IMG/VR virus record: IMGVR_UViG_3300009420_004026
Location: 1-33,167 of that record
Reading direction: 5' to 3' (one strand)
DNA from: a virus
Length of the DNA: 33,167 bases
Every line of letters begins with the position of its first letter. The first letter of the stretch is position 1. Shown piece by piece: positions 8,290-23,094 of this stretch. The position numbers were made by a program, and so were the translations under genes. Under the pieces are notes generated by a model, which saw only the letters and a list, made by a program, of their open reading frames with translations, made no database searches and was not told the origin of the DNA.

Positions 8290-8323
8290 AGTAGTGATTC
8301 CTTTTGTTTCACGTTATATTAAT

Positions 8324-8352: not shown

Positions 8353-8376
8353 TAGTTAATTTGATTTAATTTCAAA

Positions 8377-8649: not shown

Positions 8650-8681
8650 AGTGATTCCTTTTGTTTTCGCTTTATATCATT

Positions 8682-8710
8682 AATATAAACTATTAAAACA
8701 GACTTGTCAA
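8682..8710 (-). promoter_or_regulatory. Early sigma-70 promoter
   Basis: Minus strand TTGACA (8705-8710), 17-nt spacer, TATATT (8682-8687). It is nearly the same as the promoter at 8324-8352 and drives the 8377-8649 gene. Confidence 0.85.
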
Positions 8711-8723
8711 TAGTTAATTTAGC

Positions 8724-8751
8724 AAAGTGGGAAACCGAAGCTCCCCACTTT
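8724..8751 (-). terminator. UUCG-loop terminator after the phosphate transporter
   Basis: In minus-strand RNA this forms a 12-bp stem with a C(UUCG)G tetraloop. Two of the pairs are G-U and would be A-C mismatches on the plus strand, so the minus strand is the functional one. The 3' U-run is short. It separates the permease gene from the next early promoter, which begins 14 nt further on. Confidence 0.75.
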
Positions 8752-8756
8752 ATTTT

Positions 8757-9710
8757 TTATGTTGGCGCTAAGACGTAATGCACAAGTAATACAAGTGCAA
8801 CTGAAGCCCCAAGACCAACCATCATTTTACCAAAGTCTTTTGCAACTATTGGAAATACTGATTTAGTTTTCTTTTTACCAGTGAATGTAGCAATAGCTAA
8901 TTCGCGTCCTGCTAACATGCCTACAAAAACCCAAGTTGTGCTCATTGGAATGTCATTTAATTCTTTAAAGAAATACAAGCATAGCCAATAGAATAAGTCA
9001 ATCAATGTGGCTGATCGTACATATCTTGTATTATGTTTCTCTAAAACAATTTGCTGGATTTTCCCGCCTTTTTCTTTAAACATGAAGAATAAACCGGCGA
9101 CGAATACAACTGATATAAGAACCATCAAATCCACAGGAACCACGCGTGGTAAGAATACCGCGATATTGGCCATATCATGTGACAGCCAAGTCCACCATAA
9201 ACCACCTGTTGCTAACCATTGAGCAATTCGCCAATAGTTCTTATACTCTTCTTTAACGGGTTTAGACTCATCGAGCCATTTGCTAACAAAGTACCATACT
9301 GCGTAAGCAAACGCTGCAGCAACACCGTAACCCATAATAGATTTCATAAGCATTTTTTCCAACACGAAGGTTGAAGCAAATACTGATAATACTAAGAATG
9401 ATGTTGAGACCGGCACACCAAAACGTGTTAAACCGACGAGTACTGCTGGTGCCATTGCGTGATACCATTGAACTTCCTGCCAAGGAATCTTGTTCAAACG
9501 TCCGTAACTAATATCACCACCATTCATGTACCAACCATACCAAAGTGTGGCAAGCAATACGCTTGATGCTGAAATCCATAATGTTTTGTAAGTAACTCTC
9601 TCATTGTTTGATGCCATCCATGTACCGAGAGTTTGTACTGAATCATTTGCAATTACTGCATACGCAGCTAACAGGAACCCGATAAGGCTCCATGTTGTAA
9701 GTAGTTCCAT
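8757..9710 (-). CDS. PiT/PHO4-family inorganic phosphate transporter
   Basis: 317 residues, very hydrophobic, with about eight likely membrane segments. The two half-repeats typical of phosphate permeases are visible. The first has VIANDSVQTLGTW (about 19-31) and GVPVSTSF (about 98-105). The second has WLSHDMANIAVF (about 175-186) and DIPMSTTWVFVG (about 253-264). These correspond to the GANDxxN and P(I/V)STT signatures of PitA and eukaryotic PiT proteins. Transport of phosphate into the infected cell with H+ or Na+ is the family function; substrate is inferred. It is shorter than PitA (about 500), lacking the large central loop. The ATG follows AAAAGGAT. It is a single-gene unit with a TATAAATA box 68 nt upstream, so expression is probably late, when DNA synthesis needs phosphate. 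Confidence 0.88.
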   Translation of the reverse strand: MELLTTWSLIGFLLAAYAVIANDSVQTLGTWMASNNERVTYKTLWISASSVLLATLWYGWYMNGGDISYGRLNKIPWQEVQWYHAMAPAVLVGLTRFGVPVSTSFLVLSVFASTFVLEKMLMKSIMGYGVAAAFAYAVWYFVSKWLDESKPVKEEYKNYWRIAQWLATGGLWWTWLSHDMANIAVFLPRVVPVDLMVLISVVFVAGLFFMFKEKGGKIQQIVLEKHNTRYVRSATLIDLFYWLCLYFFKELNDIPMSTTWVFVGMLAGRELAIATFTGKKKTKSVFPIVAKDFGKMMVGLGASVALVLLVHYVLAPT

Positions 9711-9778
9711 TTAATTATCCTTTTGCTTGACGGCTTTACCCCGTCGCTCACAATATTAAACATGATTGTTTAACGCAG

Positions 9779-9786
9779 TATTTATA
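9779..9786 (-). promoter_or_regulatory. Late promoter of the phosphate transporter
   Basis: Exact TATAAATA on the minus strand, 68 nt before the permease ATG and directly downstream of the terminator at 9802-9835. A small GACGG/CCGTC hairpin (about 9729-9746) sits in the leader just before the Shine-Dalgarno. Confidence 0.75.
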
Positions 9787-9801
9787 GGACATAGTACGCT
9801 T

Positions 9802-9835
9802 AAAAAAACGGAAAAACTATTTTGTTTTTCCGTTT
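9802..9835 (-). terminator. Intrinsic terminator
   Basis: A perfect 12-bp stem (9806-9817 with 9824-9835), 6-nt loop, then seven T on the minus strand. It ends the transcript of the genes at 10420-9859 and insulates the late promoter at 9779. Confidence 0.88.
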
Positions 9836-9858
9836 AATATAATATTAGAAATATAAGT

Positions 9859-10017
9859 TTAATCAGATTCAGTTTTAATGTTATCTCTTAACGCATCATA
9901 TAATACTTCTGATATAACTGCAAGTTGTAAACCAGTCGCTTGAACTCGACTCTCGACATATTCCTCATACGTCGAATAACAGTGTGCGCGCTTCGGCGGA
10001 GTACGGTTTGTTATCAT
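9859..10017 (-). CDS. Small protein of 52 residues, unknown
   Basis: Starts at the ATG at 10017 (MITNRTPPKRAHCYS), chosen because TAGGAA lies upstream. A longer frame from 10086 would overlap the preceding gene by 44 bases. The rest is a helix-rich stretch ending YDALRDNIKTESD. It follows the 10043-10420 gene and is closed by the 9802-9835 terminator, so the two form a small early operon. No family recognised. Confidence 0.6.
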   Translation of the reverse strand: MITNRTPPKRAHCYSTYEEYVESRVQATGLQLAVISEVLYDALRDNIKTESD

Positions 10018-10042
10018 ATTTAAAATTCCTATTGAATTAAGT

Positions 10043-10420
10043 TTATGCCATTGCTGACATTTTAGGGTTGTGAGAAAAAGCAACAAAGCCTATTGGAGCA
10101 ACAACTGCTACGGTGCCATCTTCGGCTACGATAACATCGCCAACTGACAGGGAAGACATGCGACTTAAACGCTCGATGTTTTCCTCTGGGCCCATGTTAC
10201 CGATGTGGAATACTTCGTTATAATCTTTGGCTTCGATGTTACAAACATGAGTGTAGTAACCAGCTTCAAAAGCATCAGAAGCAATACCACCAATCTTATG
10301 ACCTTTAAAGTCCATCATCATAGCGTTACGAGCTTCAAAAGCTGGAACAGTATTATTACCGTTGATTGCTGCGTATTGAGCTGTTGAAAGCTGGATTTGG
10401 TAGATTGAAAACTTAGCCAT
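10043..10420 (-). CDS. Conserved small phage protein, unknown
   Basis: 125 residues. It starts MAKFSIYQIQLSTAQYAAIN and contains a DFKGHKIG, a YYTHVCNIEAKDYNEVFHIG block and a SLSVGDVIVAEDG turn near the C-terminus. I recognise this layout from conserved hypothetical proteins of marine phages but know of no function. It has its own early promoter (10454-10482) and an AAAAAGGAATCA leader. Confidence 0.85.
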   Translation of the reverse strand: MAKFSIYQIQLSTAQYAAINGNNTVPAFEARNAMMMDFKGHKIGGIASDAFEAGYYTHVCNIEAKDYNEVFHIGNMGPEENIERLSRMSSLSVGDVIVAEDGTVAVVAPIGFVAFSHNPKMSAMA

Positions 10421-10453
10421 AAGATGATTCCTTTTTGTTTACCTTATACAACT

Positions 10454-10482
10454 AATATACTATATTAATATAGGAATGTCAA
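10454..10482 (-). promoter_or_regulatory. Early sigma-70 promoter
   Basis: Minus strand TTGACA (10477-10482), 17-nt spacer, TATATT (10454-10459), followed by the AAAAAGGAATCA leader of the 10043-10420 gene. Confidence 0.85.
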
Positions 10483-10703
10483 TAGTTTTTTTCTTTTAAT
10501 TTAAAATAATTTCTAAAATCTTTTTCATCATGGGAATATTCAAAAAGTATCGTGTCTTCAATTACACCGGTATTCTCTTTATAAGTCCATTGTGTTTGGT
10601 TCATATGAGATTTGCAAAAATGCTTCGCCGCAGTTCTTAGATCACTAGGAATACAAATCTCGTAATATTTTTCTACGTTTGCCCAAGTTTTTAAATGTGA
10701 CAT
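10479..10703 (-). CDS. Small protein of 74 residues, unknown
   Basis: Start taken at the ATG at 10703 because AAGGAAAC precedes it at the usual distance; an in-frame ATG at 10724 would add seven residues. The protein (MSHLKTWANVEKYYEI..., ending FRNYFKLKEKNY) is rich in aromatic and charged residues with no membrane segment. I do not recognise it. No clear sigma-70 promoter is visible upstream. Its stop lies inside the -35 region of the next gene's promoter, showing tight packing. Confidence 0.7.
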   Translation of the reverse strand: MSHLKTWANVEKYYEICIPSDLRTAAKHFCKSHMNQTQWTYKENTGVIEDTILFEYSHDEKDFRNYFKLKEKNY

Positions 10704-10731
10704 TATAGTTTCCTTTTTATTCATTAAAATA

Positions 10732-10739
10732 TATAAATA
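10732..10739 (+). promoter_or_regulatory. Late promoter of the 10808 gene
   Basis: Exact TATAAATA on the plus strand, 68 nt upstream of the ATG at 10808 and positioned between divergent genes. Confidence 0.75.
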
Positions 10740-10807
10740 AAGAAAGCGAGTTACACAATTAAGTTTGAACTATATTATTACTTATAATTTAAAACAGGTT
10801 GTGAAAA

Positions 10808-11290
10808 ATGATAGATCCAATTACCGCAATTACAGCAGCTACAGCTGCGTTTAATACCGTTAAGCGATTTGTTCATGCAGGGCAAGAATTTGAAAACGTT
10901 GCAAAACAACTCGGAAAATGGTATACGGCGTCGGCCGACTTTAGGCACGCCCAACAAGAAAATAAAAATCCCCCGATATTTAAAAAGTTATTTGCAGCAG
11001 GTTCTGTAGAAGAAGAAGCGCTTAACATACTTATATATGATAAGAAACTTATTGAGCAAGAAAAGGAATTGGCTTTACTTCTCAACATGCGTTTTGGCTA
11101 TGGTACTATGGAAGAGCTTAAAACAATGCGAAGAAAAATAAGAGCACAAAGACAGGAAACCGTTTACAAACAAATTGAAAGAAGAAAAGCGTTAATTAAT
11201 TTAGTTACAGTTTGCGTAGGTTGCATCGCAATTACAACGTTAATAATAGGGGGTGGGTACTTTGTAGGATTAGGCATGGGTAAATGGTAA
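10808..11290 (+). CDS. Late membrane-anchored protein conserved in marine T4-like phages
   Basis: 160 residues. Residues 1-20 are Ala/Thr-rich (ITAITAATAAFNTV). The middle is a charged helical region with KNPPIFKKLFAAGSVEEEAL (about 53-72) and RRKIRAQRQETVYKQIERRK. One clear membrane segment follows (about 131-155, LINLVTVCVGCIAITTLIIG), and the end is short. The NPPIFKKLF...EEEAL block is one I recall from conserved proteins of unknown role in T4-type ocean phages. Topology resembles a tail-anchored inner-membrane protein. It could act in lysis (spanin or holin accessory) or be internal to the virion; neither is shown. It is expressed late and is isolated on the plus strand. Confidence 0.85.
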   Translation: MIDPITAITAATAAFNTVKRFVHAGQEFENVAKQLGKWYTASADFRHAQQENKNPPIFKKLFAAGSVEEEALNILIYDKKLIEQEKELALLLNMRFGYGTMEELKTMRRKIRAQRQETVYKQIERRKALINLVTVCVGCIAITTLIIGGGYFVGLGMGKW

Positions 11291-11469
11291 CGATATTTTT
11301 GTATTCTGTTGCCATGACTCATGTTTGGATTAACAACCACAGCGCGCTAGTAAAAATATGCAAATACTCAGTGCCAATTGAATTGCGTGCAAAATACAAT
11401 AGTAATCCTATTCAAAGAGTAGTGCACTACAATAATAGTTGTCCTAAATCAATCTCAATAGAAAAATAA
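11284..11469 (+). CDS. Possible small protein (61 residues), doubtful
   Basis: Open frame overlapping the end of the preceding gene by seven bases, with no clear Shine-Dalgarno. A shorter version starts at the ATG at 11314. Composition (MTHVWINNHSALVKICKYS...) shows nothing diagnostic. It fills the gap before the converging minus-strand gene, which argues mildly for a real gene. It could equally be a chance frame in the 3' region. Confidence 0.3.
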   Translation: MVTIFLYSVAMTHVWINNHSALVKICKYSVPIELRAKYNSNPIQRVVHYNNSCPKSISIEK

Positions 11470-11470
11470 A

Positions 11471-11740
11471 TTAGCCCCAGTCTTTAAAGTCTTGTAAAAT
11501 ATCTTCGTTATAGATATACCCGGCGCGATATGCTTCTTTTTCAATATTAGTTAAATCGTCAATTCGCTTAGACGTACGCGTACCTCCTAAATAATAGTGA
11601 GGTACTTGTCGCCGGCCATAATAACTGTCAGCCGAACCTCGGTCAAAAGGTCCTCCATGACGTGCGTCGCCTGAACCGACTTCTACATCGTAGACGCGTC
11701 CGTGATATTCAAAAGTTTGTGATTTTTCGTGATACTTCAT
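11471..11740 (-). CDS. Conserved phage protein with GGPFDRG..YYGR motif
   Basis: 89 residues. The central motif DARHGGPFDRGSADSYYGR followed by PHYY and a C-terminal IEKEAYRAGY is characteristic of a widely distributed small phage protein. Its function is unknown to me. It lies 18 nt downstream of the bilin reductase on the same strand and is the last gene of that late operon. Confidence 0.85.
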   Translation of the reverse strand: MKYHEKSQTFEYHGRVYDVEVGSGDARHGGPFDRGSADSYYGRRQVPHYYLGGTRTSKRIDDLTNIEKEAYRAGYIYNEDILQDFKDWG

Positions 11741-11758
11741 TACATTACCAATTCTGAC

Positions 11759-12451
11759 TTAATCATTAATTTTAGGAAACAGCATGTCAGTACAAAACTT
11801 GTCTACATCTGCTTCATCTAAACCCAAACTTTTCATTGTGCGAGGAGTGTGTGGATTTTGTTGTTGATTGTGGCAGTAGTAGTTTTGTGCAGCAACAGTT
11901 TCGCTGTATTCACCCTTGCCTGTAAACTCACCAATTTTACTAAAGTAATCACGTAGATTATCTTGTGCTAGCGTGATAATGGCAACTGCTTCCTCTTCTG
12001 AATTTACATTGCCTGCAGCCAACATTTTATCTGTAAAAATATTAGTTGCCCATTCAGGTAATTGCCGTTGTTTTTTAGGAATAAAGTCCGCGACTGATTC
12101 TTTGTATCCTACAATCATAGGATGATCGATACCGCCACTGCTTGCTGAAAAGTCGTGAAAAGCGCCTGTCATTTTATTCTTGCCTGCAATAACGTCAAAG
12201 CCATATATAGGACCATTGTTGTTAAGCACAGGAAAAACGCATACATGCATCATCCACAAACCCTTACTATCGCGAGCGTCTACAACATCAATGTGAGCCC
12301 GCCTAACATTATCATTGCGCCAAACGCGGTTGACCCAAGTATCGTTATTAAAATGAGAAAGACCTAGTTCGTCATACTCTGTTGCGCTTGCATCAAAAAT
12401 ATTAATAATTTCATCTTTGCACTCTATTAGTCTATCCCAAATAACACTCAA
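11759..12451 (-). CDS. pcyX: Ferredoxin-dependent bilin reductase, PcyX-like
   Basis: 230 residues from a TTG start at 12451 (stop codon in frame just upstream; GGGG about 8 nt before). The family pattern is clear: RRAHIDVVDARD, then MMHVCVFP, YGFDVIAG, TGAFHDFSA, a QLPEW...IF segment, and a C-terminal YYCHNQQQNPHTPRTM. These blocks line up in order with cyanobacterial PcyA. His69 and Asp86 match PcyA His88 and Asp105. The PcyA-specific Glu76 is replaced by Asp55, and Asn199 sits where PebS has its second catalytic Asp. Phage PebS lacks the equivalent of His69, so PcyX (biliverdin to phycoerythrobilin, known from marine viral metagenomes) is the best fit. Product and electron donor are inferred. 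Second gene of a late operon; no haem oxygenase is visible in the window. Confidence 0.88.
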   Translation of the reverse strand: MSVIWDRLIECKDEIINIFDASATEYDELGLSHFNNDTWVNRVWRNDNVRRAHIDVVDARDSKGLWMMHVCVFPVLNNNGPIYGFDVIAGKNKMTGAFHDFSASSGGIDHPMIVGYKESVADFIPKKQRQLPEWATNIFTDKMLAAGNVNSEEEAVAIITLAQDNLRDYFSKIGEFTGKGEYSETVAAQNYYCHNQQQNPHTPRTMKSLGLDEADVDKFCTDMLFPKIND

Positions 12452-12473
12452 TTTTTAACCCCATAATTTATAA

Positions 12474-12719
12474 TTAATCGTACCCTCTTACGGCCACTTT
12501 ATCCATATCTTCATTTATAATCTCAGCTTCACGAGCTTTGTACGCTGCTTCAAATCCTACTTCGTGCATATAATTTTCATTATTACCCCAAAGTCTTTTA
12601 AAATATGAATTGTAAGTTTTTTCAACATCTACGTCAGACCACTCTCTATCAATAAGTTTGCCTTTAATCATCCAATTAAATCGGTTAGCTTCTTTACGTA
12701 CGAATGAGCTGCACACCAT
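12474..12719 (-). CDS. Small protein ahead of the bilin reductase, unknown
   Basis: 81 residues, charged, with Trp- and Tyr-rich helices (ANRFNWMIKGKLIDREW, YNSYFKRLWGNNENY). It is first in the late operon (TATAAATA at 12748) with a good AAAGGAG before ATG, and it ends 22 nt before the bilin reductase. It is too short to be a haem oxygenase and shows no iron-sulphur Cys motif, so it is not a ferredoxin. No family recognised. Confidence 0.8.
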   Translation of the reverse strand: MVCSSFVRKEANRFNWMIKGKLIDREWSDVDVEKTYNSYFKRLWGNNENYMHEVGFEAAYKAREAEIINEDMDKVAVRGYD

Positions 12720-12747
12720 AGGTCTCCTTTACAAAATATATTATTTT

Positions 12748-12755
12748 TATTTATA
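12748..12755 (-). promoter_or_regulatory. Late promoter of the bilin reductase operon
   Basis: Exact TATAAATA on the minus strand, 28 nt before the ATG at 12719. It implies that the operon 12719-11471 is transcribed late. Confidence 0.8.
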
Positions 12756-12835: not shown

Positions 12836-13246
12836 TTACAACGCACAGTTGATGTCGCCATGATTACCTTTATGTGTTGGATTAACCCACCCTGACGGCT
12901 TAATCAAATCTGGAAGTCCGAATTTATTTGGGCGACCTTCTTTAACACCAGGCTCTTTTGCCATGTTAGCTTCATATATAGCGTTCCATGCCATATTAGA
13001 ATCAACACCAAATACATCAAGTGTGCCTAAGGCAAAAACACACATATCAATTAAGCCGTCAACAATCTCTTCAGGATCTTTAGCTTCGATTGCTTCCATC
13101 GTTTCATCGTATTCTTCTTTAACCATAGACATACGGAAATTGAGATAGTTATTCATCAATTCCTTATCGTCCTTGTTTTTTTCAAACCATTCACGCACAC
13201 CAAACTTGTGGTGCATCATCATCATATCATTTGCCATATCAGTCAT
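12836..13246 (-). CDS. MazG-like / PRA-PH-type NTP pyrophosphohydrolase
   Basis: 136 residues, all-alpha. The metal-binding pattern EEYDETMEAIEAKD...EEIVDGLIDMCVFALGTLD (about 45-77) is that of the MazG/phosphoribosyl-ATP pyrophosphohydrolase superfamily. It is followed by AWNAIYEANMAK and GRPNKFGLPDLIKPSGW, typical of phage members. The family removes pyrophosphate from nucleoside triphosphates; in phages dNTP-pool adjustment or (p)ppGpp-linked roles have been proposed. Met-rich start (MANDMMMMHHKFG). Early promoter at 13274-13302. It is a single-gene unit upstream of a perfect hairpin. Confidence 0.85.
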   Translation of the reverse strand: MTDMANDMMMMHHKFGVREWFEKNKDDKELMNNYLNFRMSMVKEEYDETMEAIEAKDPEEIVDGLIDMCVFALGTLDVFGVDSNMAWNAIYEANMAKEPGVKEGRPNKFGLPDLIKPSGWVNPTHKGNHGDINCAL

Positions 13247-13273
13247 AATATATCCTCTTTCATTGTATAATTC

Positions 13274-13302
13274 ATAGTATCATTAAAACGTGTTTTTGTC
13301 AA
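13274..13302 (-). promoter_or_regulatory. Early sigma-70 promoter
   Basis: Minus strand TTGACA (13297-13302), 17-nt spacer, TACTAT (13274-13279), upstream of the MazG-like gene. It overlaps the 3' end of the coiled-coil gene. Confidence 0.75.
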
Positions 13303-13481
13303 CCAATTTTTAGTTGCTCGAGATGAGTAATTTCATCTTTTAATTTTAGCTTTTCTATTTTAGCTCTTTTAACAGAAATTTCTGGAGCTTTTTCCGCTTC
13401 CAAGGCTTCTATAGTTTTATGTAATTTTGAATGGCGGTTTTGTAGTAAATTAATTCTGTAGGTTTTTTCTTCGTTATTCAT
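13299..13481 (-). CDS. DUF465/YdcH-like small coiled-coil protein
   Basis: 60 residues forming two helices: RINLLQNRHSKLHKTIEALE and KRAKIEKLKLKDEITHLEQL. The second helix matches the signature of DUF465 (YdcH-like) proteins, found in proteobacteria and many phages with no assigned function. The ATG follows AAAGGAAAC and lies 12 nt after the stop of gene 43, so it is the promoter-distal gene of the polymerase transcript. Confidence 0.75.
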   Translation of the reverse strand: MNNEEKTYRINLLQNRHSKLHKTIEALEAEKAPEISVKRAKIEKLKLKDEITHLEQLKIG

Positions 13482-13493
13482 TAACCGTTTCCT

Positions 13494-16025
13494 TTATATA
13501 AAAAAATCTTCAAGAGTATCTACTTTTACTGCGTTCCAACCTATTGCTTCAAGAATACTATCAATCGGACTTAAAAAGACTTTGTTAAATTGAGTTTCGT
13601 AATCTATGTATTGATCTAAACCAAGCTGTTTTGGAAGAATATTTGGAAACGAAATAATATTTTCTCGAATTGGATTTGGCAGTTTTAAATGTAAGAATTT
13701 AATTTTGTCACCGCTTTTTACAGTTTCAAATTTTTTGTTTAAATTCTTTTCTTTTAAAAAGCTGTTATACAAAATTGCACCGCGAACGTGCATTGGACAA
13801 CCCTTTTTATATGATTTATTTGTCATGTATTTTTCAATATTGTCTGTACCAGAGTTGCGACCAATAGCTTCAGGTGGTAGTTTGTAGAATTCTTGGCGAA
13901 ACTCCTCGATAAATTTCTGCACTGTAGCTTCATCGCCATTCATAATAACTTCAAAGGATCCACGCAATTTGTCACGGCAAACTTCCGGTGTAGACGAACG
14001 GACTGATTCAAGACCTGTTACTGAAATTTTAGGTTTGTCATAATGAACGCCTTCGGAATTAAGTGTATTCATGATGTAGCGTTTTTTAGCAATAAACACA
14101 GTTTTATCTGTGATCTTTTCGCGTTTCATAATCATTGCCTGGCGATAAGAACCCATTGTTTTTGAAAGCTCTACATAACCAGCTTCAATAACAGGTTCAA
14201 TTTGCATCCGACAAATTTTATCAAGGAATTCTTCACCTACTTTGCGATCAACATCTATTGTTTTAAAACGCTTTTCAATAATAGGAGCCATGTTAACGTA
14301 AATAGAGTCTGTATCAATATATATGATATAATCTACGTCAGCGGTACCAAGAACTTTGTTTATATAGTTATTAACAGATTTTTGAGCGTATCGAATAGAT
14401 AATTGTCCAGAAGTAGTAATCGCTTCAGCCATGTCATTAATATAGTAAAGAAAGTAAATGTTTGCCATTGCGCCATAAAGGCTATTCATACTAATTTTAA
14501 TTGCCATCTGTGCGTTATGCAACTGATTTGCTTTACGTTTTAATTGATCCTTTTCAGCAGGATCTGTAGCGTTCTCGAGCTCCTGTTCGACCTTGAGCAT
14601 TTCCTGTTTAATGATTTTACGATTACCATAATATTCATCAATGATCCCTGGAATAACACCAATTTTTTCATTTGTAAAACACGCACCGTTAGCCGCAACA
14701 GACGCGGCAGGCCGATTGTTTTGATATTTACCACTTAGTACCATTTCTTGCGAAACATAATCGCGTTCATCTTTTAGATATGTTTCGGGAGACATATTAT
14801 ATTGAAGCATTAAATGCGGATAAAGTGAATTCAAATCAAACGAAACAACCCAAGGATGCATACCAACTTTTGGATCTTTAACATAACCACCAACAAGATC
14901 GCCTGCGCGTTGTCCAGGTCGGCCTTTAACATTTGGAACGCGTTTTTCTTTAATCAGTTTGCGATACAAGGTTGTTTCCCAAATACCTACAGTGCCGAAA
15001 GCATCACTATAATTAACACCTCCTCCATACGCAACAGTCATAACCAATTCAAGTAAAGATGTTTCATCTTCAAAACGCTGAATAAGCCAAGTATCTTTAA
15101 GGTTATAGTCAAGATATAATTGTGGATTTTGCTCATACAATTCCGTGAGTGTACCATAGTCAGAGTAGTCAAGTTTCTTTTCGCCAAGAATTACGCTTGC
15201 GATATGATCAAGTTTCCACGATTCTTGTGGTCCGTACTTATAACCAAATTTCTTAAATGCGTCCATATAATCAATAACTGTTATACCAGTAATTTGATAA
15301 GTAGAAGCGGGTTTTCCAAAGATTTCACGCGTTTTCATGCGTATGTTTTTCCAAGGAGATAGTTGTTTTGCTTTTTCTTCACCAAATAGTCGAATGATAC
15401 GCGTAATAACATACATGATATCAAAGTATTCTACATTCCATCCTGTAACAACTTCAGGAAAATCACTTGACCAGAGTTGAATAAAGCGTTGCAGTAAAGC
15501 TTCTTCGGTATCGAATTTCATAAACTGGATGTTGTCTGGGTCAATACCGGAGATTGTTTTAGATTTGTCGTAATCTTTACGGCCTAAAAGATTGTAAGTA
15601 TCGGATTTTGATGATTTCATTGAAATAGAAGTAATTTCTTTATCAGCTTCATCTATGTTTGCGTAGCCATCACTAATATCAACTTCGATGTCAAATGCAA
15701 GAATGTTAATTTTTTTCATGTCGAATTTAATATCGTTTGGATATTTTTGTTGAATAAATTGCGCTACATAATTTGTATTACCATACATTTCAAAGCCGTG
15801 AACATCTTTGTGTTGTTCAATGAAATCCTTTGCTTCACCCATAGTTCCACATTCCCGAGGGGATAATGGTCTATCACCTATGAGAGAACGGTATTCACCG
15901 TCGCGGTCAGGCAAAAATAATGTAGGAGCAAACTTTTCTTTGCGGATAAATGGCTTTCCATTAGTGTATCCACGCCAAAGAATGTTATTGCCAAAGCGCT
16001 CAACGTTTGTATAAAAATTAGACAT
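13494..16025 (-). CDS. 43: DNA polymerase (T4 gp43 type, family B)
   Basis: 843 residues, close to T4 gp43 (898). The N-terminal exonuclease domain has Exo I FDIEVD (about 109). The polymerase motifs are in order: motif A DLNSLYPHL (about 396), motif B KISMNSLYGAMA (about 511) and motif C YIDTDSIYVN (about 571), then KKRYIMNT. All catalytic Asp are present, so it should be an active replicative polymerase with proofreading. It has its own early promoter with a perfect TATAAT. The sliding clamp and loader genes that sit near 43 in T4 are not in this window. Confidence 0.98.
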   Translation of the reverse strand: MSNFYTNVERFGNNILWRGYTNGKPFIRKEKFAPTLFLPDRDGEYRSLIGDRPLSPRECGTMGEAKDFIEQHKDVHGFEMYGNTNYVAQFIQQKYPNDIKFDMKKINILAFDIEVDISDGYANIDEADKEITSISMKSSKSDTYNLLGRKDYDKSKTISGIDPDNIQFMKFDTEEALLQRFIQLWSSDFPEVVTGWNVEYFDIMYVITRIIRLFGEEKAKQLSPWKNIRMKTREIFGKPASTYQITGITVIDYMDAFKKFGYKYGPQESWKLDHIASVILGEKKLDYSDYGTLTELYEQNPQLYLDYNLKDTWLIQRFEDETSLLELVMTVAYGGGVNYSDAFGTVGIWETTLYRKLIKEKRVPNVKGRPGQRAGDLVGGYVKDPKVGMHPWVVSFDLNSLYPHLMLQYNMSPETYLKDERDYVSQEMVLSGKYQNNRPAASVAANGACFTNEKIGVIPGIIDEYYGNRKIIKQEMLKVEQELENATDPAEKDQLKRKANQLHNAQMAIKISMNSLYGAMANIYFLYYINDMAEAITTSGQLSIRYAQKSVNNYINKVLGTADVDYIIYIDTDSIYVNMAPIIEKRFKTIDVDRKVGEEFLDKICRMQIEPVIEAGYVELSKTMGSYRQAMIMKREKITDKTVFIAKKRYIMNTLNSEGVHYDKPKISVTGLESVRSSTPEVCRDKLRGSFEVIMNGDEATVQKFIEEFRQEFYKLPPEAIGRNSGTDNIEKYMTNKSYKKGCPMHVRGAILYNSFLKEKNLNKKFETVKSGDKIKFLHLKLPNPIRENIISFPNILPKQLGLDQYIDYETQFNKVFLSPIDSILEAIGWNAVKVDTLEDFFI

Positions 16026-16089: not shown

Positions 16090-17802
16090 TTATGCTGCAA
16101 TTTCTGAAAAGTTTTTGATTTTTTGAAAACGAATATGTGCATCAAATTTATCACTGAACTGGTGACCACGGTGCGATATAACAAAAATGTTATCATCACT
16201 ATTTAGATTGTGCAGTGTATCGATCAAGTTTTCAATACCCGTACCGTCAAGAGCGCCATCTAGTGTTTCATCAAGCAACAACAAGTTAGTAGAAACAGAA
16301 TTTCTTAGTTTTGCAACTGCGCGCCACGCTAACATAATCGACAACGTGATGCGCAACTTTTCGCCTTCGCTAAACGATGCATACGAAAACGCATCACGGA
16401 AACGTGACTTGATGATTTCATTAAAGTTCTCATCAAGCTGAAAGTCAACAAACAAATCAAACGCTCCAAGATACTTGTTGATTAGCTTATTCATAACAGG
16501 AATATATTGCCTAATAATACGAGTCTTAATACCGCCATCGCGTAACATTGTTTGCACTACGTTCAGCACTTCTTTATTATCAAATAAATCCTGTTGCTCA
16601 TTCTCGTAGTTAGATAGTTTAGACACGAGAGAATCAAGCGCGGAAGCATCAACTGCTTCGACTTCTTGCTCAGCTTTAATTAATTCATTTTTGTATGAAA
16701 CCAATGCGGTTTTTGCCATCTTAATAGATGCGCGATGGTCACCAATTTTTAAATTCATATTTGACATTTGATCTTCAACAACGGAAATAGACTCGATGCG
16801 ATCTGCATAAACTTTTGTCTTTTTAGCCAGTTCTATTAAGCCGTTTTCTAATTCAACAACTTTTGCATCTTTTTTAAACATAACATCTTTTTTGAAATCG
16901 TGTTCAATACCTTGCTTGCAAGTAGGACAATCATCATGGTCGTGATAAAATGCTAATTCTTTTTGATGCGCGCGAATTGAGCTTTCTATATCACGTCGAA
17001 GTGATTTGCCTTTTTCAATTTTTGTTTTTATTTCAGGCTTGTCTTTGATATCATCTGCGCAAACCGTTAATATATCTTGGATAGCCTCGATTGCTTTTTG
17101 GTCATTTTCAACAGCCGAAATGTGGCCAGACATTTTTTCACGGATCTTAATAACTTCGTCTTCTTTAATTTTACGAATAGACGCGTTATGTTCTTTTGCT
17201 GATTCGAGCTTGGACTCAGTCAAACCCATCTGATAACTATTCTCTGTAATTGATTCTTTATTACTAGAAAGTCTGTCTTTAAGTAAAATATTCATTGTTG
17301 AGAATACTTGGATATCAAGCAAGTCTTCAACTAAATCGCGGCGAGTATGTGCAGGTAATTCCATAAATGGTACGTAAGTTGCCGAACCTAACACGACGAT
17401 TTGATTGAATGATTTATAATTCAAATTTAAAATGTTTTGTTCAAGGTATGTCTGATAATCGCGTGACGCAGCATCTTGATTAATCATTTCATCGTTTTTC
17501 CAAATTTCAAACACAACTGGCTTAATGCCGCGTCTAATTAGAAAGTTGTTTTGACCAATTTGAAATACGACTTCAACCATTGCTTCGCGGCCATTGATGC
17601 TGTTAATTAACTGGTTTTTATTAATTTTGCGAAAAGCTTTACCATACAAACCAAAAACAATAGCGTCAAGCAGAGTTGATTTACCACTGCCGTTTGTTCC
17701 GCTGATAAGCGTAGTTCTTGCTCCGTCTAGTTTAACTGAAGTCCAAGAATTACCGGACGATAATAAATTTTTGTATCTAACTTCTTTAAAATTAATCTTC
17801 AT
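16090..17802 (-). CDS. 46: Recombination endonuclease subunit gp46 (Rad50/SbcC-like)
   Basis: 570 residues. Walker A SGTNGSGKST is at about 34-43. Long coiled-coil arms flank a zinc-hook CPTC (about 291-294). The ABC signature SEGEKLRITLSI is near 475 and Walker B LLLLDETLDG near 508. With gp47 it forms the SMC-type nuclease complex that processes DNA ends for recombination-dependent replication and degrades host DNA. Its ATG overlaps the gp47 stop by four bases (ATGA), giving coupled synthesis of the two subunits. Confidence 0.97.
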   Translation of the reverse strand: MKINFKEVRYKNLLSSGNSWTSVKLDGARTTLISGTNGSGKSTLLDAIVFGLYGKAFRKINKNQLINSINGREAMVEVVFQIGQNNFLIRRGIKPVVFEIWKNDEMINQDAASRDYQTYLEQNILNLNYKSFNQIVVLGSATYVPFMELPAHTRRDLVEDLLDIQVFSTMNILLKDRLSSNKESITENSYQMGLTESKLESAKEHNASIRKIKEDEVIKIREKMSGHISAVENDQKAIEAIQDILTVCADDIKDKPEIKTKIEKGKSLRRDIESSIRAHQKELAFYHDHDDCPTCKQGIEHDFKKDVMFKKDAKVVELENGLIELAKKTKVYADRIESISVVEDQMSNMNLKIGDHRASIKMAKTALVSYKNELIKAEQEVEAVDASALDSLVSKLSNYENEQQDLFDNKEVLNVVQTMLRDGGIKTRIIRQYIPVMNKLINKYLGAFDLFVDFQLDENFNEIIKSRFRDAFSYASFSEGEKLRITLSIMLAWRAVAKLRNSVSTNLLLLDETLDGALDGTGIENLIDTLHNLNSDDNIFVISHRGHQFSDKFDAHIRFQKIKNFSEIAA

Positions 17803-18863
17803 GCGATCTGCTGTGCCTCAATATATAATTCATCAATGAGTGTTGTAATTGCCACCTTATCAACTTTCGTATCTATTGACTCGATATACGAGTGCAAAAT
17901 CTCTTTGGTGTCTTTTGTTTCGTCTAAAATTTCGTCAACGCCAGCTTCCTCTAAATTTAAAGAGTCTTCAATAGATTTAACGTCAGCTGCGCCAGCGTCT
18001 GAAAGCTTGTTCAAAAATAAGTCATAGATATATGAGTTATTTCTGTTCTTAACGATTACCTTAATATATGCGTCCGCGATGTTGGTTAAGTCCAAATTTG
18101 CGATATCATCAATAGTCATATCTTGGTCATCGTATTCAATTTTGTGATATATCTGAAACGGGTTTAATACCCATGCCAAATCGCGTGTCTCGGTGTCAAG
18201 TATTCTAAATCCACGTTTGCCACCATAATCTGACCATGTCATTTCGTATGGAGCGCCTAGATATGTTATGTTATTATAGACTGATGGGTGGTGGAAGTGA
18301 CCAGAATAAACAGACTCAAAATGTTTAAAGATGTCTTTTGTTAGACCGTGGTCATTAATAGCACCCTTCAGCATTTCAAAACCTTGTATAGCAAAGTGAC
18401 CCATGCAAATATCAGCTTTTGAGTTCTTCACCGTTTCTAGGCTTGATTCCATGTTATTCTTTGTTAGCCATGGAACCATTATAACATTAGTTGATCCGAA
18501 TGTCAACTCAACAGGTTTGTCTTTATAAATGTTAAAATTAGAATATTCTTGAAGCAGCAAATTCATTGAATTGATTTCGTTTGTATTCGTATAATACACT
18601 GAATGATTGCCGACGATGGCATGGTACTCAATATTACGTTTAGCAATTTGGTCAAAGAAGAATTTCTTTGCTCTATCGAGCGTAACATAATTTACATATT
18701 TACGGCGGTCAAAGGTATCACCTAAATCAAGAATTGTTTTAATATTGTGTTCGTCAATATATGGAAAGAAAACTTCTAAAAAGAATTTCTCTTGGTGGTC
18801 AAGGAATACCTTTGCATCACCACGTACACCAAGGTGCATATCTGTAATAATCGCTATTTTCAT
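17799..18863 (-). CDS. 47: Recombination endonuclease subunit gp47 (Mre11/SbcD-like)
   Basis: 354 residues. The metallophosphoesterase motifs are in order: DMHLGVRGD (8-16), DLGDTFDRRKY (about 46-56), VGNHSVYY (about 84-91), MGHFAIQG, and SGHFHHPSVY. These supply the two-metal nuclease site. It partners gp46, which is encoded directly downstream with a four-base overlap. The stop of the preceding conserved gene lies three bases before this ATG, so 55, the conserved gene, 47 and 46 look like one operon. Confidence 0.97.
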   Translation of the reverse strand: MKIAIITDMHLGVRGDAKVFLDHQEKFFLEVFFPYIDEHNIKTILDLGDTFDRRKYVNYVTLDRAKKFFFDQIAKRNIEYHAIVGNHSVYYTNTNEINSMNLLLQEYSNFNIYKDKPVELTFGSTNVIMVPWLTKNNMESSLETVKNSKADICMGHFAIQGFEMLKGAINDHGLTKDIFKHFESVYSGHFHHPSVYNNITYLGAPYEMTWSDYGGKRGFRILDTETRDLAWVLNPFQIYHKIEYDDQDMTIDDIANLDLTNIADAYIKVIVKNRNNSYIYDLFLNKLSDAGAADVKSIEDSLNLEEAGVDEILDETKDTKEILHSYIESIDTKVDKVAITTLIDELYIEAQQIA

Positions 18864-18866
18864 AAT

Positions 18867-19370
18867 TTAATCCCATAGGTTTTCGTAGAAACGACCAAAC
18901 AATCTAAATCCATCAGTCATTCTGCCTTGATGCGCTATAACACTTTCGCTATCCCATTTGTAATCGTATTCAGATATCCAATCATCTTTGCATTTTTGTT
19001 CAAACGCCCAAATCATTTCGTCTAAAATATCGTCCCACTCTTCTTCGCTTAATTCTTGCGGATAGCTATGCTTTGTTTCTTTTAGTTGTTTAAGCATCGG
19101 CAATATAATTACAGCAAGTGTATCATCCATGCTCCATGTATCCCAGCGATGAATGTGTACTTTTACTTTTTGCGTACGCCTGTCAAACCACAACCAGTTA
19201 AATACGTTGTACACGCTTTGCACTGCGTCTTCAATAGCTTCCCATACGTGATCGCCGTAGTCCCAATAAGCTTCTTCTGGCCAGTGTAAAGATTTGTACT
19301 TTTTATTCATATGACGAGTATGCGCATTACATATTAGTCTATTTGAATAATTCCCTATTTTAACTTTCAT
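18867..19370 (-). CDS. Conserved T4-like phage protein (RWDTWSMDDTLA family), unknown function
   Basis: 167 residues from the ATG at 19370; a TTG at 19391 would extend it but has less support. The motif VKVHIHRWDTWSMDDTLAVI is followed by LPMLKQLKETKHSYP and DEMIWAFEQKC. I recognise these from a conserved marine T4-like protein, whose function is unknown to me. Trp-rich throughout. The start overlaps the end of gene 55 by 11 bases and the stop lies three bases before 47, so it belongs to the recombination/late-sigma operon. Confidence 0.85.
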   Translation of the reverse strand: MKVKIGNYSNRLICNAHTRHMNKKYKSLHWPEEAYWDYGDHVWEAIEDAVQSVYNVFNWLWFDRRTQKVKVHIHRWDTWSMDDTLAVIILPMLKQLKETKHSYPQELSEEEWDDILDEMIWAFEQKCKDDWISEYDYKWDSESVIAHQGRMTDGFRLFGRFYENLWD

Positions 19371-19893
19371 CTTTAGTCTTTTCTTCAACAACTTTTTTTG
19401 GAAGTTTTTTGCTTGCTAATTTTTCTTCATAATCGCTAACGAAATGATTTATATAATCTGCGTTTGTGTTTAAGTGTAATTGTACTTCATTAGATTCATA
19501 TGTTGCGCCCTGTGCAACCATGTTGTGTGAAGATTTAAAGCGAATATACATTTGCTTTTTTTCTTTTTGGATCCTGCGTAAAAACGCGAACCAAATAACT
19601 TGTGTAAAATACGCAAACGGATTTGAAGACTTGTTGTGATCGAAGTTGCCAATGTATAGAAGGCAGTTTTCTATACCGTCCATAATCATATCTTCTTTAT
19701 AAGTGTAGCCTGAGAAGTTTGGTTTTGTAGCAAGACGGTTTGCAATTTTAAAAATGCATTCTCCAATATAAACCGGCACTATAGGTAACTTATCACCCTG
19801 ATTTTCAGCTTCAACGCATCGCTTCTTGTATTCAATTAGCGCGTCTAACAAATCCTTGTTGTTTACATAATTTCTTTTTGCTCTTCTCGCCAT
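19360..19893 (-). CDS. 55: Late-transcription sigma factor gp55
   Basis: 177 residues (T4 gp55: 185). A basic N-terminus (MARRAKRNYVNNKDL) leads into the sigma region 2-like block: YKEDMIMDGIENCLLYIGNF, then NPFAYFTQVIWFAFLRRIQKEKKQ (about 91-114), which binds the TATAAATA box and core RNA polymerase. In T4, gp55 with gp33 and the clamp directs late transcription. The late boxes in this window are its expected targets. The gene appears early-expressed (sigma-70-like elements upstream, AAAAGGAT before the ATG). Confidence 0.92.
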   Translation of the reverse strand: MARRAKRNYVNNKDLLDALIEYKKRCVEAENQGDKLPIVPVYIGECIFKIANRLATKPNFSGYTYKEDMIMDGIENCLLYIGNFDHNKSSNPFAYFTQVIWFAFLRRIQKEKKQMYIRFKSSHNMVAQGATYESNEVQLHLNTNADYINHFVSDYEEKLASKKLPKKVVEEKTKDES

Positions 19894-19930
19894 TATACGA
19901 TCCTTTTCTATACACTGTTAATATACATTT

Positions 19931-19954
19931 TATACTATAAATCTGAAATGTCAA
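19931..19954 (-). promoter_or_regulatory. Probable early promoter of gene 55 (weak match)
   Basis: Minus strand TTGACA (19949-19954). The -10 is unclear: TATAAA with a 14-nt spacer, or a TATATT further downstream. The upstream position and -35 identity support a promoter, but the spacing is poor. Confidence 0.4.
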
Positions 19955-19997
19955 CTGTTAATTTATAAAATATTTTTACAAATTGTGCATTTTGTTG

Positions 19998-20026
19998 TTG
20001 ACAGGTCTGAAAACTAGGGTTATAAT
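19998..20026 (+). promoter_or_regulatory. Consensus sigma-70 promoter antisense to uvsW
   Basis: TTGACA (19998-20003), exactly 17 nt, TATAAT (20021-20026). The palindrome AGAATTAATAATTCT (20027-20041) covers the expected start site. It points rightward into the 3' end of uvsW, which is on the minus strand; no plus-strand gene follows for 3 kb. Confidence 0.7.
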
Positions 20027-20062
20027 AGAATTAATAATTCTGATAGTTGTGGTATATAAGTG

Positions 20063-21559
20063 TTATTCGAGAGGTATTGTGTATATTTTAAAGGGAAAAT
20101 GTTCTTCAGAATATATCTCTATCCGTCTCTTGAAGTGATTCAAAGTATAATTTGTAAACGCTCCGACTGACAAATCGTCAGCAATATCATATAACGTAGC
20201 TTGATCTGAGTCATCAGCTTTACGTAACGATCTACCAATTGATTGGAGTACTTTGATTTCAGATTTAGATCCAGACGCAAATATCACATTATCTAATCTT
20301 TTAATATTTACACCAGTTGAAAACACTCCATATGATGCTAATATATCATGTTGCTTAACAGGATCATTTTCAACAAGGTGGCGAATATTTTCACGTTCAT
20401 TTCCCTTTACCCCACCATATACAAAATGCAATTTACGATCGTCTCTCCGAAGGAGAGGTTCTAATATTTTTCCGTGTTTCTCAACAAGATCAAATAAAAT
20501 AAGATTGTTTTGTCCCTTCAAAGACCAAACTAAATTGCGAATAAAAATGTTTCGCTTTTCGTGGTTTGTAAGATATTCTCTTTCAGCTGGGTATCTCTTT
20601 TGCTTAACTTGAATAGAATTAAACGCCTTACGGAACTCTTTTCTCTTATCTTCAGGGTGAGACAACACTAACGCCTTCACCTTAAAATTTGCTACGGTAC
20701 CTTCTTCGATAAGATCTCTTGTTTTTACAAATCTTTTTACTTGTCCGAAACAACCTTCCAACACTAATTGGTGGGTTTTTGATTCTCCAGACTTAAGCGT
20801 ACCAGTAAAACCGTGACGGTATTCACAATCAGTTAACTTCTCCATAATAGTAGTTAAAGATTTTGCCTGAAACAAGTGTGCCTCGTCACCAAGAACAACT
20901 CTGAATTGGTCGAACCATTCTTTGGGTTGCTTTATTAATGATTGCCAAGTACTAATTACAACGGGTGCGGATGTTGTTTTATCTACTCCACCTTGAATTT
21001 TATATACGAGCTCCGGATCAAAACCATAGTCTACAAAATCACCTGCCATTTGATGAACTAGTGATATTGTTGGAACTACGATTAATGTTCTATGCCCAAA
21101 TGCTTGGTAATAGTGTTGTTGTATTAAATAAATTATGAGAGATTTACCAGAAGATGTTGGTGATAATGATAGTGAACGGTTATTTTTAATTGCGTTTACA
21201 ACATAATCATTTTGATAATCTCGAGGGATAAATTTACAGTTTATTTCTTCTGCTAATTCAAAGCCATAATTGTCTGGTACAATATGATCTATTATCATTT
21301 CGTCAGGAATTGCGAGTTCGTAGTCACGTTCTTCACAAAACTTTTTTAAATAAGCAAGGAGGCCTACCAATAATATAGGCCGCATTGGCTGATACATTCG
21401 AATATAACCATCCCAAACTCTTGCTTTGAATTTCGGATTAAACTGATATCCGTCAGGTCTAAAAGAAAAGTAATTCATTATTTCCTGGCGTACACCTGGA
21501 TCTGCTGTTACTTTCATGTGAACCGCGTTTATCGGTTCTACAGTCACTATATCGTTCAT
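20063..21559 (-). CDS. uvsW: UvsW-type DNA/RNA helicase
   Basis: 498 residues (T4 UvsW: 503). A DNA-binding N-terminal domain is followed by RDYQ (Q-motif-like, about 113), Walker A SPTSSGKS (133-140), DEAH at 225-228, a TGT motif III-like HGFTGTLKSG, and motif VI SIGRSLRKAD. The T4 enzyme unwinds R-loops and branch-migrates recombination intermediates, shutting off origin replication in favour of recombination-dependent replication. It is followed downstream by the 55 operon and preceded by uvsY. A consensus promoter on the opposite strand lies just beyond its stop codon. Confidence 0.96.
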   Translation of the reverse strand: MNDIVTVEPINAVHMKVTADPGVRQEIMNYFSFRPDGYQFNPKFKARVWDGYIRMYQPMRPILLVGLLAYLKKFCEERDYELAIPDEMIIDHIVPDNYGFELAEEINCKFIPRDYQNDYVVNAIKNNRSLSLSPTSSGKSLIIYLIQQHYYQAFGHRTLIVVPTISLVHQMAGDFVDYGFDPELVYKIQGGVDKTTSAPVVISTWQSLIKQPKEWFDQFRVVLGDEAHLFQAKSLTTIMEKLTDCEYRHGFTGTLKSGESKTHQLVLEGCFGQVKRFVKTRDLIEEGTVANFKVKALVLSHPEDKRKEFRKAFNSIQVKQKRYPAEREYLTNHEKRNIFIRNLVWSLKGQNNLILFDLVEKHGKILEPLLRRDDRKLHFVYGGVKGNERENIRHLVENDPVKQHDILASYGVFSTGVNIKRLDNVIFASGSKSEIKVLQSIGRSLRKADDSDQATLYDIADDLSVGAFTNYTLNHFKRRIEIYSEEHFPFKIYTIPLE

Positions 21560-21622
21560 TATTCACCTGTAATTTAATTTTTAGACAATGCGGAACGAAT
21601 ACTAATTATCTCTGTAAAACTG

Positions 21623-22060
21623 TTAGTAACCGCCAGCTTGGAATTTTGCCCAGTCTATCATATTTTTGACTATGAAGTTCCTATTATTTATCTGTTTAAC
21701 AATACTTTCCAAATACTTAGCACGTTCTTCGTGTAAGGATATTTTTAGGCTAAGTTGGATAATTTCGCTATCGCTCTGGACATGCCGATCTAAATCACCG
21801 CGCAAAACTTTTAGTTGAAAGGGTTTCCAACCCCTGTCTTTTAGTTCTAATTCGTCCATCGACCCGCCGTAATATTCAGACTTTACTTTTTCAAATTCAA
21901 GCAAATCAGCTTTTAATTTTTTTACTTTGAGCGCTTCTCTATAAAAGAGATTGTAGTATTTATTATGAAGCTCAGGAATGCGAGAAGATTCACGAGATAA
22001 ATTAGTTTCGTCAATCTTACAATCCTGAGCCCATAGTTGGTTTATTTCATCAATATCCAT
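21623..22060 (-). CDS. uvsY: Recombination mediator UvsY
   Basis: 145 residues from the ATG at 22060 (a GTG directly before it is the alternative), near T4 UvsY (137). Layout matches: N-terminal LWAQDCKIDETNLSRESS, a long charged helix with KLKADLLEFEKVKSEYYGG, and the C-terminus NRNFIVKNMIDWAKFQAGGY, resembling the T4 ending (FAIKHIQDMRAFEAG). UvsY loads UvsX recombinase onto gp32-covered single-stranded DNA. The neighbour order uvsY then uvsW is as in T4. Early promoter at 22093-22121. Confidence 0.92.
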   Translation of the reverse strand: MDIDEINQLWAQDCKIDETNLSRESSRIPELHNKYYNLFYREALKVKKLKADLLEFEKVKSEYYGGSMDELELKDRGWKPFQLKVLRGDLDRHVQSDSEIIQLSLKISLHEERAKYLESIVKQINNRNFIVKNMIDWAKFQAGGY

Positions 22061-22092
22061 CACTTAATTCCCATTATATACTGTATAATATA

Positions 22093-22121
22093 AATATATC
22101 ACATAAAGTGATAAATGTCAA
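22093..22121 (-). promoter_or_regulatory. Early promoter of uvsY-uvsW
   Basis: Minus strand TTGACA (22116-22121), 17-nt spacer, TATATT (22093-22098), about 33 nt before the uvsY start. Confidence 0.85.
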
Positions 22122-22594
22122 CCTTTCTGTTTAGCAACTTGCACGTCGTAAGCAGCTCTATCAACAATACCTTCATTCAAAAGTCTTTGACGATTTACTT
22201 CGTGTGCAGCTTGTGTTTCTGCTTTTGATCCGCCAAAATAAGAAACCGCATGGCCTTCATCGATAAGTATTTCAGTTAAACGCTTATCTGCTCCGTTGTA
22301 ATTTTCGATAATAAAATCGCCAAGCACTCGTCCAAACTTGCCCTTCATATCTTCGCCATTTTTACTTACTTCAGTTTTAAGAATAACATCTCCAGACAAA
22401 AGTTCTTTTACTCTCGCCTTTGCAGCTTCTCCAAATAAATCTTCGACTTTATCTGAAGTTCTGGACTCTGGCGTATCAATACCCATAATGCGAACTCTTT
22501 CGTCCGCAAGTATTACACCAAATCCTAATTCTATATCAACATCAACAGTATCACCGTCGATTACTCTGTTTATCGCGCACTTATATTCGTACAT
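22118..22594 (-). CDS. Thermonuclease-like (SNase family) nuclease
   Basis: 158 residues with the staphylococcal nuclease fold. It contains RVIDGDTVDVDIELGFG (Asp13, Asp15), then VRIMGIDTPESR with Arg35, Asp40 and Glu43, and KGKFGRVLGD with Arg89; these supply the Ca2+-dependent catalytic site. The C-terminal helix region ILIDEGHAVSYFGG is also typical. It should cut DNA and RNA. No signal peptide, so it acts in the cytoplasm; host DNA breakdown or DNA repair is possible. It lies 11 nt downstream of the tail-tube-fold gene and is likely read from the late promoters at 23136-23158. Confidence 0.92.
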   Translation of the reverse strand: MYEYKCAINRVIDGDTVDVDIELGFGVILADERVRIMGIDTPESRTSDKVEDLFGEAAKARVKELLSGDVILKTEVSKNGEDMKGKFGRVLGDFIIENYNGADKRLTEILIDEGHAVSYFGGSKAETQAAHEVNRQRLLNEGIVDRAAYDVQVAKQKG

Positions 22595-22605
22595 TTGGAA
22601 TTTCC

Positions 22606-23094
22606 TTATAGTTGTGTTATTGTAAAATCTCTAAAGGTAAAACTCACGGTTGCTTGTGGATACACTATGTCAGTTTGTGTAGTATCAAGCATAATATCAG
22701 ATAAATTTACTGGAAAACAATCTCTAAATTGAATTTCTATATTCGGGTTTTTATGGCTATTCATAATTACAAGAGAAATGTCTGTAAGAATTCCGTATTC
22801 ACTAGTTTTTATATTATTAAATTGCGGAAACTCTTCGTTAAACGACAACGCCTTTAACCAATTATAAACCTCTATATAGTTACTCATGGATTCATCAACT
22901 ATAAAAGACAAAGGCAATTCACCATATGTTAAACGATCGCCCGGCACCGGTACGATTTTAAAAGGTGTATTTTGATCTACTTGTGCAATTGAAACCGAAG
23001 GAATAGTTACCGCCTGGGTAAAAAATTGAACCTCTGGTAGCCTCTTCACAGTCACTACAAATTCGAGTGGTGATAAAAAATTAGTTGTCGACAT
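22606..23094 (-). CDS. Tail-tube-fold virion protein
   Basis: 162 residues, the same size as T4 gp19. The sequence reads as a beta-rich tube domain: FTQAVTIPSVSI, then PFKIVPVPGDRLTYGELPLS, FIVDESMSNYIEVYNWLKAL, and a C-terminal half with IQFRDCFPVNLSDI and ATVSFTFRDFTI. Marine T4-like phages carry such a gene near uvsY, annotated variously as a tail tube or baseplate component. Which ring of the tube or baseplate it forms cannot be told. Tandem late promoters upstream support a structural role. Confidence 0.8.
   Translation of the reverse strand: MSTTNFLSPLEFVVTVKRLPEVQFFTQAVTIPSVSIAQVDQNTPFKIVPVPGDRLTYGELPLSFIVDESMSNYIEVYNWLKALSFNEEFPQFNNIKTSEYGILTDISLVIMNSHKNPNIEIQFRDCFPVNLSDIMLDTTQTDIVYPQATVSFTFRDFTITQL

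Follow-up and report, generated by a model that had tools for sequence, protein, structure and literature searches.

Why does a T4-type phage carry a bilin reductase gene with no haem oxygenase gene (hemO) beside it, and where would its biliverdin come from? The reductase concerned is PcyX, previously described from phages, which converts biliverdin, a haem breakdown product, into phycoerythrobilin (PEB), a pink pigment. The window analysed here is the whole stretch of 33,167 nucleotides of IMG/VR record IMGVR_UViG_3300009420_004026. Its pcyX open reading frame runs on the minus strand from 12451 to 11759, starts with TTG and encodes 230 amino acids; the forward-strand translation of 11759-12451 is riddled with stops.

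11759..12451, minus strand: pcyX, PcyX-group ferredoxin-dependent bilin reductase (FDBR), identified by PF05996, 5owg, tree, AF2 model and dN/dS

An earlier note on this DNA had assigned the gene to the bilin reductase family and proposed a PF05996 profile search, which bore the assignment out. The product matched the profile with 50.8 bits (E 2.3e-13, profile positions 38-228), the curated cut-off being 31 bits, and was the only match in the window record. It also matched PHROG 7278, 'ferredoxin oxidoreductase', with 62.5 bits. The closest solved structure by sequence was PcyX_EBK42635 (PDB 5owg, E 3e-80 over residues 2-228); the top PcyA chain among solved structures gave E 6e-14. An AF2 model of the window protein had a mean pLDDT of 95.3, and Foldseek returned 5owg as its top match (E 2.8e-17, TM 0.94 by target), together with PcyA, PebA, PebB, HY2 and PebS, demonstrating the FDBR fold. 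Compared with its relatives, pcyX showed dN/dS of 0.05-0.09, indicating purifying selection and hence that the gene is no chance ORF.

Across the 125 FDBRs compared, position 55 was Asp in all 54 PcyX sequences including the window's and Glu in all PcyA compared (cyanobacterial, cyanophage and alphaproteobacterial). The 44 members of a second phage FDBR group (here denoted Lys-type, or the Lys55 group) all carry Lys, and PebS, PebA and PebB have Ala, Thr or Ser. At position 69, PcyX, the Lys group and PcyA all have His where the Peb lineage has Asn; Asp86 is present throughout the set, and Asp55, His69 and Asp86 are invariant in the 54 PcyX sequences. The alignment agrees with the earlier equation of His69 and Asp86 with PcyA His88 and Asp105, and of Asp55 with the position of PcyA Glu76; Asp55 has been named a PcyX-specific catalytic residue (PMC11480375). 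The use of Asn199 as a mark against PcyA did not survive: every PcyA examined carries Asn there, so the residue does not discriminate PcyX from PcyA, and the second PebS Asp aligns opposite the adjoining Pro200 (a gapped region, accurate to one position either way).

The FDBR tree that the note had also proposed was built by maximum likelihood from 88 rows; the program flagged the long-branch rows PebS and L280, and their placement was not used. The window protein groups with the characterised PcyX in a single clade of 34 PcyX rows (support 95/80). The Lys-type sequences form a clade of their own (100/99), which joins PcyX in a starred clade (99/96) beside alphaproteobacterial PcyA, and the alphaproteobacterial PcyA, Lys-type and Peb rows stand apart from the PcyX clade. 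A published AX clade likewise unites PcyX with alphaproteobacterial PcyA (PMC10151467). The nearest structure, Asp55 and the tree clade all agree on PcyX and not PcyA or PebS. Identity as PcyA was ruled out by Asp55 in place of Glu, by the tree and by the PcyA equivalog model (NCBIfam PRK02816), which the protein matched with 76 bits, under the cut-off of 206; identity as PebS or PebA was ruled out by His69 rather than Asn and by the tree placement. Judged by its sequence, the window protein is very likely an ordinary PcyX, a further member of a known enzyme group. One of the flagged rows, L280 2895-3593, is a divergent Asp55 FDBR on a long branch at the PcyX base; its contig was binned as a gammaproteobacterial MAG (MED685) and is possibly a phage contig.

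Cassettes of hemO-pcyX and hemO-pcyA/X-valaS are known from aquatic phages, the hemO-pcyX phage contigs cluster with myovirus-type pelagiphages, and broken cassettes have been described in which hemO and pcyA/X are paired with valaS close by (PMC11480375). Pelagibacter phage Mosig EXVC030M (MT647606), an isolated SAR11 phage, carries a hemO-pcyX pair. Because of these precedents, the clear phage context that the earlier note saw this contig as giving to PcyX is not new. One scan detected 302 relatives of the window PcyX in viral contigs, and the close relatives in 84,980 bacterial and archaeal genomes were three MAG-binned contigs (66-84% identity), presumed to be phage contigs; the occurrence of PcyX is thus that of a phage gene and not of a chromosomal one.

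Compared with PcyX_EBK42635, which comes from a marine viral metagenome, the window protein has the same family, length, Asp55/His69/Asp86 and fold, but PcyX_EBK42635 and the Mosig PcyX share a separate branch and the window PcyX lies in another subclade. Mosig EXVC030M is likewise a T4-type phage of a heterotrophic marine bacterium, and its PcyX is 52.6% identical; however, its hemO overlaps pcyX and its record contains a Fer2 ferredoxin, whereas the window pcyX is solo. The cassettes of PMC11480375 resemble the present system in being phage-borne hemO and FDBR genes with presumed proteobacterial hosts, yet they keep the two genes together, whereas the window pcyX is detached and hemO apparently stands with a Lys-type reductase. 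The closest clade outside the two phage groups is the AX-clade alphaproteobacterial PcyA (Falsiroseomonas and kin, L283-L286), which differs by Glu at position 55/76 and is for that reason predicted to make PCB. Cyanophage PebS (P-SSM2) and PcyA (P-SSM4) have the FDBR fold and belong to T4-type phages, but in PebS Asn stands in place of His69 and residue 55 is Ala, and PcyA has Glu at 55.

In 45 of the 50 PcyX records searched whole, hemO (PF01126) adjoins pcyX. The five without it are the window's clade, G001-G004, and G012, whose contig is cut off at pcyX. Neither the window nor G001, G002, G003 and G004 gave a PF01126 match, so the two-gene hemO-pcyX cassette is absent there. G002, which is 99.8% identical to the window, reaches 9.6 kb further left, still without hemO. 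Profile searches confirmed that the 33-kb window contains no haem oxygenase and no 2Fe-2S (Fer2) ferredoxin, as the note had reported. In the tree, the solo-PcyX sequences form a single clade nested within hemO-linked PcyX. A hemO remnant between pcyX and the ORF upstream of it was excluded, merely 22 bases separating the two. The lack of hemO beside pcyX is real.

The neighbouring genes define the site at which pcyX resides and the backbone around it:

12474..12719, minus strand: 81-aa ORF directly upstream of pcyX, insertion-site marker (same site in relatives, 51-76% identity)
11471..11740, minus strand: 89-aa ORF directly downstream of pcyX, second insertion-site marker (69-72% identity in relatives)
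12836..16025, minus strand: MazG-like pyrophosphohydrolase, 60-aa ORF and T4-type DNA polymerase gp43 (PF01503, PF00136/PF03104)
16090..23094, minus strand: gp46, gp47, gp55-like late sigma, UvsW, UvsY, nuclease and gp19-like tail tube (Pfam/NCBIfam; synteny with G051)

The T4 core genes on the window (gp43, gp46, gp47, UvsW, UvsY, PhoH, the topoisomerase II subunits and the gp19-like gene) substantiate the T4-type phage context claimed earlier. The window gp43 is 84% identical to that of the near-complete relative G051 and at most 43% to that of any cultured phage. G051 (182,738 bp) is syntenic with the window, its UvsY being 93% identical, and at the pcyX site it has two different small ORFs between the 81-aa and 89-aa genes and no pcyX. 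The cousins G003 and G004 carry pcyX at the window's site, and the flanking ORFs are kept in relatives both with and without pcyX. At the DNA level pcyX is 75-83% identical to the gene of phages G006, G009, G012, G014, G017, G020 and G021. Replication genes of these phages are either missing from the contig or match the window's at 31-34% identity, and the topoisomerase proteins that they share with it are 32-34% identical. By these comparisons, pcyX is foreign to the window's T4-type backbone.

Beyond pcyX, hardly anything on the contigs of these phages aligns to the window as DNA; the exceptions are a permease-like gene, which G014 and G021 have, and a short nuclease stretch, found in G014. 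The permease-like gene (window 8757-9710, minus strand) encodes a membrane protein with two PVST/PMST plus ND/HD motifs like those of PiT phosphate permeases, and the protein occurs on several phage backbones. All five homologues match PF01384 (PHO4) at a permissive limit (best E 0.00026), the window protein remaining below the cut-off; its AF2 model, made from 5 sequences, has a pLDDT of 38.7.

Backbone contigs that span the resident site carry hemO together with a Lys-type reductase gene, as detected by a neighbour-gene scan. In G051 this pair lies at 96.45-97.71 kb, ~16 kb past the gp52 gene, and the reductase is 33% identical to the window PcyX. One scan yielded 142 viral loci of the Lys55 group, and hemO was found with the Lys-type gene in 36 of the 37 records tested. 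This large phage FDBR group, whose loci include L346-L425, G051 96.45-97.71 kb and G125 32.5-33.7 kb, could be the 'PcyA*' type that PMC11480375 describes with CB_2. A search of 39 records for pmoC gave no match, the control sequences likewise giving none. The right end of the window connects to one such cassette:

32840..33167, no strand: terminal overlap with G125 (IMG/VR 3300009420_003532, bases 46631-46304), 317 of 328 bases, end to end

G125 (46,631 bp) is 96.6% identical to the window end over these 328 bp, and the gene spacing over the joint, by arithmetic from the coordinates, is ~3.1 kb, compared with 3.3 kb in G051. We infer that the window and G125 are one genome, which would carry two reductases; since the overlap is 96.6% and not 100%, G125 may instead be a near relative. 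On the assumption of one genome, the distance from the window end is ~12.6 kb to the G125 hemO and ~13.1 kb to the Lys-type gene (cassette ~12.6-13.8 kb). The absence of hemO from the 33 kb would then be a window effect, because G125 places hemO beyond the window end, and this lends support to one of the note's two options, a haem oxygenase encoded in another part of the phage genome. G124, a 99.9% twin of G125, comes from metagenome 3300027813, which also yields G002. An exact 40-mer search for a contig bridging the window end returned G125 alone, no contig with pcyX and the resident cassette together was found, and each long record examined has exactly one reductase, none having two.

The condition of the resident reductase was assessed against 78 columns invariant among 50 background Lys-type sequences, with a leave-one-out test. 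The Lys-type reductase of the G124/G125 group has 13 of the 78 invariant residues broken, and that of L437-L439 has 10, including the catalytic Asp (PcyX Asp86), changed to Asn. The remaining Lys-type sequences have 0-2 broken, except one deep branch at 53% identity. In both groups hemO is intact (0 of 38 invariant columns broken). The changed positions strike strictly invariant residues and are mostly different between the two groups, and these are the two groups linked to solo PcyX: G124/G125 by the contig overlap with the window, and L437 by sharing metagenome 3300031658 with the solo-PcyX contig G004, a link that rests on that one metagenome. Both links were drawn before the residue loss was seen. 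The sites, going by their metagenome numbers, are presumably polar (Arctic and Antarctic, L437-L439 being Antarctic). The decaying reductases have open frames, PF05996 scores above the cut-off and dN/dS of 0.17-0.21, and for hemO the corresponding pairs likewise give dN/dS of ~0.2; on these grounds the changes may represent adaptation rather than loss.

Expression signals were compared at the two sites.

12748..12755, minus strand: TATAAATA, resembling a T4 late promoter, 36 bp upstream of the 81-aa ORF (motif count and position)

The window contains 10 copies of the motif TATAAATA where 4.0 are expected, a count reached by 1 of 100 shuffles; transcription from the copy upstream of the 81-aa ORF would continue into pcyX. 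None stands ahead of gp43, gp46, gp47 or UvsW in the window, and G003, G004 and G051 lack the motif upstream of their 81-aa gene. The earlier description of a 'late' pcyX unit is thus partly sustained, by the motif 36 bp before the upstream gene, and weakened by its loss in these three relatives. The resident hemO in G125 and G051 is preceded by a strict TTGACA-TATAAT promoter, found at 7 of the 11 resident loci measured, a partial count in that the survey missed the hemO ORF of many Lys-type loci. Elsewhere, three TATAAATA motifs cluster at 23136-23176, just before a gene at 23216-23410 (plus strand) for a DUF1289 protein (51 bits) with several cysteines.

The window has no tRNA genes. G125 and G051 each encode six tRNAs as well as a permuted tmRNA that scores 100 and 90 bits, respectively, against Rfam alpha_tmRNA:

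L430 506-965, minus strand: permuted alphaproteobacteria-type tmRNA of G125, tag ANNNFAPSGYAALAA
L256 9731-10119, plus strand: permuted alphaproteobacteria-type tmRNA of G051, tag ANANRAPKMALAA

These tmRNAs suggest an alphaproteobacterial ancestry of the host or of the gene; permuted tmRNAs are already known from marine phages and can persist through host changes (PMC9004378). Searches for a Fer2 ferredoxin gave no match in the window or in G125, nor in any of ten backbone and Lys-type records, of which four exceed 180 kb, and a host ferredoxin is therefore the probable electron donor.

The explanation that we favour, with somewhat better than even confidence, is that PcyX was acquired without a hemO of its own, replaces the resident Lys-type reductase and uses the biliverdin made by the resident hemO. 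The gene would have arrived by horizontal transfer, leaving its hemO partner behind, in a T4-type lineage already holding hemO and a Lys55 bilin reductase. In both apparent recipient groups the resident reductase appears to be shedding conserved residues with the resident hemO intact; because the conserved residues go while hemO stays, PcyX most likely takes over from the resident enzyme. PcyX with host ferredoxin is predicted to reduce biliverdin IX-alpha in two two-electron steps, by way of 15,16-dihydrobiliverdin to phycoerythrobilin (four electrons), Asp55 and Asp86 being the likely proton donors. The more specific proposition, that the phage is caught mid-swap, with a foreign, hemO-less PcyX displacing a decaying Lys55 reductase and hemO kept, has in our judgement slightly less than an even chance.

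It is unlikely that we are dealing with a standard hemO-pcyX cassette whose genes are merely separated, with no second reductase and no replacement. Such a reading fits the pairing of hemO and pcyX in nearly all other records, the single reductase per long record and the broken cassettes on record (PMC11480375); however, the G125 hemO is no orphan but has a Lys-type reductase gene next to it, an arrangement shared with the backbone relatives that cover the site, and G051 has other genes at the pcyX site. Somewhat less likely again, both enzymes could be working, for example on different bilins early and late, the residue changes being adaptation. The TTGACA-TATAAT promoter at the resident cassette and the late-type TATAAATA before the pcyX unit would suit such a division, as would the open frames and the dN/dS of 0.17-0.21. 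It is harder to reconcile with the change of the catalytic Asp to Asn in L437-L439, with damage to strictly invariant residues that mostly differ per group, and with the failure of G003, G004 and G051 to keep the late motif. An origin as PcyA or PebS from a cyanophage or cyanobacterium, serving phycobilisome upkeep, is very improbable: the Pfam family is common to all, and PcyA and PebS are known in T4-type cyanophages, but it is opposed by Asp in place of Glu76, by His where PebS, PebA and PebB have Asn, by the tree and by the low PcyA model score; in addition, the backbone relatives carry an alphaproteobacterial tmRNA, which speaks for a host other than a cyanobacterium.

Phycobilin synthesis by phages of non-photosynthetic bacteria has been called enigmatic, with iron supply, phytochrome and bilin-binding globins listed as possibilities (PMC11480375). 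Candidate benefits to the present phage are iron release and a role of the bilin as signal or antioxidant. If PcyX does replace the Lys-type enzyme, iron release would not be the whole reason, because hemO alone would suffice, and a true swap would mean that, in phages of heterotrophic bacteria, selection acts on the reduced bilin itself rather than on haem cleavage or iron release alone. A single backbone with two reductases would offer a natural comparison by which to learn what bilin the cell requires during infection. The Lys55 group may constitute a hitherto unrecognised class of FDBR that makes a different product, and its 142 viral loci, with hemO at hand in nearly every record tested, provide a ready enzyme set.

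Two further regions of the window deserve mention. Positions 1-2980 are highly repetitive, with long overlapping ORFs on both strands whose translations repeat Leu/Thr, Tyr/Leu or Lys/Val; a collagen-like tail fibre is probably encoded on the minus strand, and the region is overlapped by G002 ORF 8049-12731. At 24663-25304 (plus strand) lies a TilS-like tRNA lysidine synthetase N-domain that exceeds its NCBIfam cut-off and adjoins genes for a HAD phosphatase and a nucleotidyltransferase.
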